Shown here in pieces: positions 21,764-39,788 of a stretch of 51,281 nt of DNA; position 1 is the first letter of the stretch, and each line of letters opens with the position of its first letter. The stretch comes from Parcubacteria group bacterium Athens0714_16 (GTDB lineage Bacteria; Patescibacteriota; Minisyncoccia; Phycocordibacterales; 21-14-all-36-13), in NCBI GenBank assembly GCA_007376805.1, contig VMGX01000003.1:1-51281 (forward strand), written 5' to 3'. A program made the translations under genes and the position numbers. The notes under the pieces are model-generated. The model was given only the letters and a program-made list of their open reading frames with translations, did no database searches and was not told where the DNA came from.

Positions 21764-22106
21764 TCCGGGGTAGCTCAGCGGTAGAGCGGTCGCCTGTGAG
21801 ACAAAATTTTTTGGCAGGCATTACGCAGCTTTCTATTGAAAGATAGATTGAAAAACGAGGTGAATTGTCTGGAAGCCGTAACATTAAATTAACGGTAATC
21901 AGCAGCCAAGCTCTGACACAATGTCAGGGAAGGTTCAGAGACTATCCATTTTTGGAGTAGCTCTCTAATTTATTTTAGAGCGCGAAGCGCCTTGCTCCTA
22001 AGTTCATATAATTTATGAATATGGAGATGATATAGTCCATGCTTCTAGTAATAGAAGACAACATGTAAGCGATTGGTCGTAGGTTCGATCCCTACCCCCG
22101 GAGCCA
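21764..22106 (+). tRNA. tRNA-Asn(GUU), intron-containing, CCA encoded
   Basis: exons 21764-21797 and 22066-22106 join to TCCGGGG TA GCTC AGCGGTA GAGC G GTCGC CTGTTAA GCGAT TGGTC GTAGG TTCGATC CCTAC CCCCGGA G CCA, a full cloverleaf. Confidence 0.93.
21798..22065 (+). ncRNA. group I self-splicing intron in the tRNA anticodon
   Basis: P1: exon GCCTGT pairs with internal guide GCAGGC with terminal U-G; core AACGGTAATCAGCAGCCAAG, GTTCAGAGACTAT and GATATAGTCC; terminal G. Confidence 0.9.
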
Positions 22107-33104: not shown

Positions 33105-33172
33105 CAACATAGCACTTATTTTTTATAGAAAATAAGTGCTATGTTGACAAATAAATTTAGATATGCTATCAT
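33105..33172 (+). promoter_or_regulatory. hairpin fused to promoter
   Basis: CAACATAGCACTTATTTT-ttatag-AAAATAAGTGCTATGTTG hairpin; TTGACA 33144-33149, 17 nt, TATCAT 33167-33172. Confidence 0.75.
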
Positions 33173-33234: not shown

Positions 33235-33486
33235 ATGGAATATCTTGTGCTAACAAGCCCAAACAAAAGAAAAAAGGTGATCTCTATACAAGTTAGAGAC
33301 ATGCCCAAAGGTGCGTCTATAAAGAAATGGATTAACATTTTAAAAAAAGAATTTCCAAAGAATTTTAAAAATTTAAAGATATCCGTTGAGAACCCCATCG
33401 ATTATGCACCATCAAAAATAATAATCTATCACGGAAATCATCCATCTGGGATGCACACATACAATTGTGTTCATTGTAAATTTTAA
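33235..33486 (+). CDS. hypothetical protein (83 aa)
   Basis: TTGGAGAAAAAATGG start context, strong upstream promoter. Confidence 0.6.
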   Translation: MEYLVLTSPNKRKKVISIQVRDMPKGASIKKWINILKKEFPKNFKNLKISVENPIDYAPSKIIIYHGNHPSGMHTYNCVHCKF

Positions 33487-33615
33487 AAAAGTTGTGGAAA
33501 GAAATTCATCTCACAAACTTGATACGGCCCGTAGTTAATACGGGCTTTTTTTATTTATGCACAAAATTAGCTTTTTTTATAATAGTATGCTATAGTAATT
33601 GTGTTCAAGGTGATG

Positions 33616-33697
33616 TCTACAAATAAAAATAAGGTTGAGTTTTATTTAGTTAGATTTAGCGCTTTGAGTTTTTAACAGGTTTATTTTTATTTGTAGA
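33616..33697 (+). promoter_or_regulatory. 5' UTR inverted repeat of the cold-shock gene
   Basis: TCTACAAATAAAAATAA (33616-33632) / TTATTTTTATTTGTAGA (33681-33697), ATG at 33699. Confidence 0.7.
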
Positions 33698-33698
33698 T

Positions 33699-33899
33699 AT
33701 GCAAAAAGGAACAATAATTAGATTGACTGACAAAGGATACGGCTTTATCTCAAGAGAGGGAGAAAAGAAAGATCTTTTCTTTCACTCAAATGAACTTAGT
33801 GGTACTGAATACAGTCAACTAAGAGAAGGAGATGCTGTAGTATTTGAAGTTGCTGATGGACAAAAAGGTCCATACGCAACAAAAGTATCTTTGGCCTAA
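33699..33899 (+). CDS. cold-shock domain protein (CspA family)
   Basis: KGTIIRLTDKGYGFISREGEKKDLFFHSNEL. Confidence 0.92.
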   Translation: MQKGTIIRLTDKGYGFISREGEKKDLFFHSNELSGTEYSQLREGDAVVFEVADGQKGPYATKVSLA

Positions 33900-33944
33900 T
33901 CATCTTTTAAAAACACCCTCGCAGAAATGCGAGGGTGTTTTTGC

Positions 33945-39179: not shown

Positions 39180-39788
39180 TTATTCAAATAAAATATTTAA
39201 AACTTCTTCTCTCCCCTTTTTTGTTTTAGCTGAAAATAAAATTATGTTTTTTATACATTTATAATCTCTCAAATCATTTTCTATTTTTTTGATATTTTTT
39301 ACAAATTCGCTCTGTGAAAGTTTATCTGATTTATTAGCAACAACTATAACATTATGATTTTCATTTTCTAAAATTTCTAACATTTCTTTATCAATTGTAG
39401 TAATTCCAATTCTTGAATCAATAATAAAAACAACATGGGAAGGTTTTACCCCCGATTCAGAAAAATACCAAATTATTCTTTTTCTTAACTTGTCTGCTAT
39501 TTTGGGAGGCATTTTTGCATAACCATAGCCCGGCAAATCAACAAAATAAACCAAATCATTTATAAGAAAAAAATTAATCTCTCTTGTTTTCCCCGGCATA
39601 GAACTGGATTTGGCCAAACTTTTTCTTTCTGCGAGCGTGTTTATCACACTTGATTTACCCACATTTGACCTACCAATAAATGCAACTTGTTTTCTTGTGT
39701 CAAATAAAATCTTATCTTCACCTATAAGACCGCGCACAAACGTAGCAGAAATCACTTTTGGGCCATTTTTTTTGTTTTTGATTACCAT
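39180..39788 (-). CDS. engB: ribosome biogenesis GTPase EngB/YsxC
   Basis: IGRSNVGKSSVINTL, DLPGYGYAKMP, VVANKSDKL; start moved to 39788. Confidence 0.92.
   Translation of the reverse strand: MVIKNKKNGPKVISATFVRGLIGEDKILFDTRKQVAFIGRSNVGKSSVINTLAERKSLAKSSSMPGKTREINFFLINDLVYFVDLPGYGYAKMPPKIADKLRKRIIWYFSESGVKPSHVVFIIDSRIGITTIDKEMLEILENENHNVIVVANKSDKLSQSEFVKNIKKIENDLRDYKCIKNIILFSAKTKKGREEVLNILFE

Follow-up and report, generated by a model that had tools for sequence, protein, structure and literature searches.

The csp locus

The window, i.e., the complete stretch of 51,281 nucleotides that was analyzed, contains on its forward strand a gene for a small cold-shock protein (csp). It is preceded by a predicted promoter and followed by a terminator-like hairpin, owing to which the csp mRNA is probably monocistronic:

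33588-33596, forward strand: predicted extended −10 element (TGC TATAGT), recognized from the sequence; transcription start expected near 33603
33699-33899, forward strand: csp, encoding a single-domain cold-shock domain protein of 66 amino acids (Pfam CSD, E = 4.7e-19)
33909-33942, forward strand: intrinsic terminator-like hairpin (15-bp perfect stem, 4-nt loop, T run)

The gene is the sole csp copy detected in the 632-kb genome. Its nearest named relatives belong to Lloyd-, Wolfe-, and Harrisonbacteria; the genome is placed in Parcubacteria and is the sole member of its family among the genomes compared. When viral contigs were searched for csp relatives, only distant homologues were retrieved. 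Two further elements of the window are recorded here as separate observations. A perfect 18-bp hairpin with a 6-nt loop (ACATAGCACTTATTTT...) is located at 33105-33146, upstream of a short open reading frame (33235-33486) that lacks a Pfam match and, unlike csp, possesses a good Shine-Dalgarno sequence. In addition, this Parcubacteria genome carries a match to the group I catalytic intron (RF00028, 73 bits) at 21801-22058 on the forward strand.

Besides the extended −10 element, a second candidate, a perfect TATAAT, is located at 33578-33583. Judged from the sequence, transcription driven by either element would begin upstream of the left arm of the stem described below. In relatives, promoters resembling TTGACA-N17-TATAAT stop 6 to 8 nt before the (A)AUCAAAU of the leader; consequently, the leader should start at AUCAAAU, and the left arm should be transcribed. 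The first-pass annotation of this DNA had named a start downstream of the left arm as the arrangement that would argue against its proposed stem; the predicted promoter puts the start upstream.

A long stem abuts the csp start codon

That annotation had described a perfect 17-bp stem with a 48-nt loop abutting the csp start codon, and this inverted repeat was indeed present, with a single base (33698) between its right arm and the ATG at 33699. The stem, termed P1, forms the OFF fold of the leader:

33616-33632, forward strand: left arm of P1, TCTACAAATAAAAATAA; 17-bp perfect pairing with 33681-33697, P1 covarying in relatives
33681-33697, forward strand: right arm of P1, TTATTTTTATTTGTAGA; ends 1 nt before the ATG, with perfect pairing and covariation in relatives

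In the minimum-energy fold, an additional AUG:UAU pairing (33613-33615 with 33698-33700) lengthens the helix to 20 bp, which thereby extends two nucleotides into the start codon. In 40 dinucleotide shuffles of the entire window, a perfect inverted repeat of at least 17 bp with a loop of at most 100 nt arose a single time; the remaining long repeats of the real window mostly have loops of 3 to 10 nt and appear to be simple or terminator-like hairpins. The 161-nt region folded better than all of 200 shuffled sequences (z = −3.9), and neither arm has a second occurrence in the 632-kb genome.

The lack of an evident Shine-Dalgarno sequence ahead of csp, reported in the same annotation, was seen here as well and extends to the relatives: none of 126 homologous csp leaders has such a sequence between positions −16 and −4, compared with a background of 6.5% of positions. 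Within the window, few genes possess one (3 of 36, by first ATG). Since the csp leaders are without a Shine-Dalgarno sequence, initiation should depend on an open structure, and it is the start region that P1 closes. As described in the following, P1 is very likely one half of a larger conserved RNA leader with two mutually exclusive folds.

A competing fold of the same leader

The first-pass annotation had also suggested that the 48-nt loop could refold. Broadly, this proved correct: the loop harbors another conserved partner for the left arm. The elements of the corresponding ON fold are as follows:

33605-33612, forward strand: 5′ strand of P4, UCAAGGUG; start of the ON fold, paired to 33660-33667 and corresponding to the conserved UCAAAUC in relatives
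33615-33628, forward strand: 5′ strand of P3, overlapping the left arm of P1; from growing-transcript folding and covariance-model alignment
33634-33640, forward strand: GUUGAGU, counterpart of the conserved GUCGRGU (P3 loop of the ON fold) present in most csp leaders examined
33640-33655, forward strand: 3′ strand of P3, UUUUAUUUAGUUAGA; rival partner of the left arm within the 48-nt loop, from growing-transcript folding and covariance-model alignment
33660-33667, forward strand: 3′ strand of P4, CGCUUUGA; counterpart of the conserved AUUUGA located approximately 25 to 32 nt before the ATG in most long leaders

Specifically, the ON fold begins at the predicted transcription start with the 5′-terminal helix P4 (UCAAAU:AUUUGA), which encloses P3 with its GUCGR loop; in the covariance-model alignment of the window leader, all 17 pairs of this fold are standard. 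The left strand (CUGUAAGAGAAAC in relatives, UCUACAAAUAAAAAUAA in the window) has two partners, either the P3 strand following GUCGR or the strand preceding the AUG. As P1 re-uses the left strand of P3, the two helices exclude each other. When folding of the growing window transcript was computed, P4/P3 persisted until approximately nt 88, after which P1 formed. Computation and covariation, on which this result rests, yield two mutually exclusive folds, one of which closes the initiation region.

Leaders of related csp genes

Leaders of approximately 126 csp genes were collected from genomes of the same order. They have in common a 5′ (A)AUCAAAUC, a GUCGRGUUU motif, and UAUUUGA approximately 30 nt before the ATG, and often carry CUGUAAGAGAAAC ... 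GUUUCUCUUACAG, the second strand ending directly before the ATG. P4 occurs in the variants CAAAAC:GUUUUG, CCAAAU:AUUUGG, AUCAAACGA:UUGUUUGAU, and ACAAA:UUUGU, and examples of P1 pairs are CUGUAAGAGAA:UUCUCUUACAG, CUGUAAGUAGAAAU:AUUUCUACUUACA, CUACAAAUA:UAUUUGUAG, CUAGAGAUAGA:UUUAUCUAUAG, and GAACUGGGUCGGGU:ACUCGAUUUAGUUC.

Several leaders depart from this scheme. Insertions between P4 and the right arm of P1 leave both folds intact in L143, L148, and L120; in L143 and L148, P1 is retained despite an insertion of approximately 40 nt, which contains an AT-rich hairpin. Another insertion, with inverted repeats of its own, splits the P3 region of L033/L130 (G152:C1). In L187 (G114:C4), a perfect P1 of 13 to 14 bp stops 18 nt before the AUG, which is at odds with simple blocking of the start codon. 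A short type of leader (L009, L016, L021, L022, L032, L146, L155, and others) retains no more than a small 5′ hairpin with a GUCGA loop (GAAAC-nn-AAGUCGA-GUUUC) plus an A-rich segment ahead of the ATG, without P1; consequently, P1 is not required by every csp gene. The GUCGA loop motif of these leaders may be a protein site. Four genomes (G014, G057, G152, and G170) contain at least two csp copies each with differently diverged leaders, which makes P1 variants comparable within one cell.

Covariation of both folds

The pairing of P1 was kept in relatives with compensatory changes; its loss was the other outcome that the first-pass annotation had regarded as speaking against the stem. Among 25 distinct leaders, the duplex energy of cognate P1 strands was −13.5, versus −10.0 for permuted strands (z = −5.9), and none of 5,000 permutations was as good. 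By family, cognate strands were favored in 12 to 13 of 18 families (13 of 18 at the wide setting; permutation p = 0.001 to 0.004), i.e., P1 was clear in a part of the families tested. An unanchored test was performed at fixed coordinates, each of 54 families being represented by a single leader (window excluded, no motif anchoring). It gave z = −5.0 to −5.2 for P1 (p < 0.0005), −2.5 (strict) and −3.5 (wide) for P4, and −2.1 for P3, whereas non-overlapping control zones in the loop and upstream were null or weak, near zero. Crossed controls, in which the left strand of P4 was combined with the right strand of P1 and vice versa, reached z = −1.1 and −1.4; two zone pairs intended as controls came out positive, both overlapping P1/P4. 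In the motif-anchored test, the local P3 strand alone gave a weak signal (z = −1.5 and −1.1).

For the ON fold, the alignment of 41 leaders (A4), which was fitted to the structure and thereby limits how its covariation is to be read, contained 28 cells changed on both sides, compared with 7.2 after shuffling (0 of 500 shuffles as good) and 16 in the best slid register; double changes occurred at 11 pairs, versus 4.3 in shuffles. A home-made phylogeny-aware test per pair, which has low power and a broad null, identified no individually significant pair of this fold. Covariation within the 15-sequence seed alone did not exceed that of shuffles, the seed being too conserved. MAFFT combined with RNAalifold produced no consensus for 33 mixed leaders, owing to misaligned registers and to competition between the two folds. 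Taken together, we are confident that csp is preceded by a conserved leader with two competing folds, which occurs in many families of uncultured Parcubacteria.

Distribution and specificity of the leader

Two covariance models were built with the window left out, R1 from 15 leaders and R2 from 41 leaders. At E values of 0.001 or better, R1 gave 29 matches in 297 genomes, each directly upstream of csp as judged by comparing coordinates with the csp table. In the window, R1 ranked the leader second with a weak match (E = 0.43), behind an antisense match in engB, and the best match of R2 was the leader at 33603-33669 (E = 0.0067, 17 of 17 pairs standard). The second match of the models in the window (39549-39615) lies antisense within an engB-like GTPase gene and was taken as chance.

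Applied to 397 genomes of the order with E = 0.05 as the cut-off, R2 yielded 55 matches, distributed over 50 genomes. Nine new or doubtful matches were inspected, seven of which have csp 22 to 35 nt downstream; the other two are cut off at a contig end (G269) or not near csp (G182, E = 0.042). Apart from the weak match in G182, that in G269, and one antisense duplicate, all matches in the 397 genomes are located directly upstream of csp. In a sample of the phylum, all four matches precede csp, two of them in genomes outside the order. Under strict genome-wide filters, the window's own leader was not called, and many diverged members have consequently surely been missed.

No Rfam match relevant to the leader was found in the window at the gathering threshold. 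At relaxed thresholds, too, none of the Rfam models, that of the cspA thermoregulator (RF01766) included, gave a relevant match to the leader (E values up to 5) or to 15 relatives (E values up to 1), and the literature collection consulted yielded no paper on a csp leader in Parcubacteria.

A bistable switch as the proposed mechanism

On the basis of these results, we propose that the csp mRNA begins with a leader of approximately 95 nt that would adopt either of two mutually exclusive folds. In the ON state, P4 would enclose P3 and leave the strand preceding the AUG free; in the OFF state, the left strand of P3 would pair with this pre-AUG strand (P1, 17 to 20 bp) and the start region would be closed. 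Since the ON fold is complete before the right arm of P1 is transcribed, each new transcript should pass through ON. Refolding to OFF would then have to overcome a large computed barrier, usually greater in the cold. Fresh or cold transcripts would be translated, and warm or ageing transcripts would be shut off. Csp or ribosomes might shift the ON/OFF balance, giving rise to autoregulation.

At 37°C, the computed ON-to-OFF barriers mostly amounted to 10 to 20 kcal/mol, with usually greater values at 10°C, in a heuristic search from which absolute times mean little; the search was not monotonic for some leaders (L161) and showed no long-range refolding for L025. Given that the ON fold forms first and that the large barrier usually rises further at low temperature, control may be kinetic: cold would extend the ON state, and Csp would either assist or counteract this effect. 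In the window, P1 lies 4 to 11 kcal/mol below the alternative fold at all temperatures computed; hence melting would not be the control, and actual switching would require either kinetics or a factor. From these models, exchange between the two folds probably controls translation, as a bistable switch that would work like the E. coli cspA leader while being unrelated to it. That cold, Csp, or both might act as the trigger via the kinetic route is put forward more tentatively.

Alternative explanations

In one alternative, Csp autoregulation would be the main signal: Csp as an RNA chaperone would bind U-rich or loop parts of the leader and shift P1 versus P4/P3, temperature acting only via the Csp level. 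The GUCGR loop is kept even in short leaders without P1, and CspA of E. coli acts on the mRNA that encodes it (PMC9947658). The occurrence of the leader almost exclusively upstream of csp points in the same direction but is also compatible with a purely cis-acting switch, and binding of Csp is putative here; we consider this version rather unlikely.

A similarly low probability is assigned to the view that the P4/P3 stem-loop is the functional element, either as a 5′-end stem protecting the mRNA or as a protein site, P1 being a lineage-specific means of lowering translation and not half of a switch. P4/P3-like elements and the GUCGR motif are more widespread than P1, which is missing in several families, and P4 is located at the predicted 5′ end. 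However, the strongest covariation signal is that of P1. Moreover, P1 re-uses the P3 strand in diverged leaders, that of the window among them, which would be a costly constraint if exchange between the folds were of no importance.

The first-pass annotation had considered an AU-rich stem to be suited to temperature-dependent access or to autoregulation by the cold-shock protein. The structured csp leader and the blocked start codon stood up to analysis; access through melting of an AU-rich helix did not. An equilibrium RNA thermometer, in which P1 melts on warming or access otherwise changes with temperature at equilibrium, agrees with an AU-rich stem that closes the start region. However, the computed accessibility of positions −15 to −1 stays at approximately 0 from 5 to 50°C and reaches 0.05 at 70°C. 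P1 stems are more GC-rich in relatives, and melting induced by warming would raise a cold-shock protein in heat too. A thermometer is thus very improbable; any control by temperature would have to be exerted via a protein or the kinetics of folding.

Attenuation of the erm type, in which translation of a leader peptide (33613-33675, MSTNKNKVEFYLVRFSALSF) would open the stem, would profit from an ATG that is preceded by GGTG and starts exactly at the left arm; however, an ATG is missing at this position in most of the relatives that share the RNA folds, a conserved upstream open reading frame was not found, and the similar frame of one relative (L006) derives from the shared GUUGAGUUUUAU motif, which makes this explanation scarcely credible. 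That the perfect repeat, with its defined end beside the gene, is a mobile-element remnant or a chance inverted repeat is a negligible prospect given arms that are unique in the genome, no target-site duplication seen, and conserved position plus covariation in relatives.

Significance and comparison with known systems

To our knowledge, gene regulation in Parcubacteria is almost unexplored. These organisms possess small genomes, and their genes, at least those of this window, seldom rely on Shine-Dalgarno sequences. A csp leader with two conserved states, if true, would represent RNA-only control of a key chaperone in these organisms by an element that is small and portable. It is conceivable, though we say so with reserve, that the leader represents a new, largely csp-specific family of cis-regulatory RNAs in Parcubacteria. 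Its members would be ligand-free kinetic switches, born in the translatable P4/P3 state and later closing into P1 by strand exchange, with cold and/or Csp determining how fast this occurs.

The leader of E. coli cspA comprises approximately 160 nt, compared with approximately 95 nt for that of the window. The E. coli leader (RF01766) is located 5′ of a cold-shock-domain gene and adopts either a fold that exposes the initiation region or one that closes it (PMC9947658), as is predicted for the window leader; in E. coli, the cold form is translatable and the 37°C form is closed and persistent (PMC9947658). Unlike the E. coli leader, that of the window has no Rfam match, lacks a Shine-Dalgarno sequence, and features one left strand with two near-repeat partners. 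It is functionally of the cspA kind, but not a member of RF01766 by sequence and structure. The absence of detectable homology to E. coli cspA would point to more than one origin of bistable csp leaders.

RNA thermoswitches of cspB and cspC in Staphylococcus aureus are the subject of a 2021 study by Catalan-Moreno et al. (cited in PMC8307031). These csp mRNAs reportedly have alternative conformations that respond to ambient temperature. S. aureus belongs to a distant phylum and is likened to the window by description. In Bacillus subtilis, elements in the 5′ untranslated regions of cspB and cspC control a csp gene, as proposed for the window leader, and point mutations in that of cspC raise expression (PMC8307031); these regions are defined by short conserved cold-shock boxes and are likened to the window leader by description only. 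In strand-exchange translational riboswitches, too, two partners compete for one strand, and one of the two pairings leaves the start region free. Unlike in these riboswitches, no ligand is indicated for the window-type element, which is found nearly exclusively upstream of csp.
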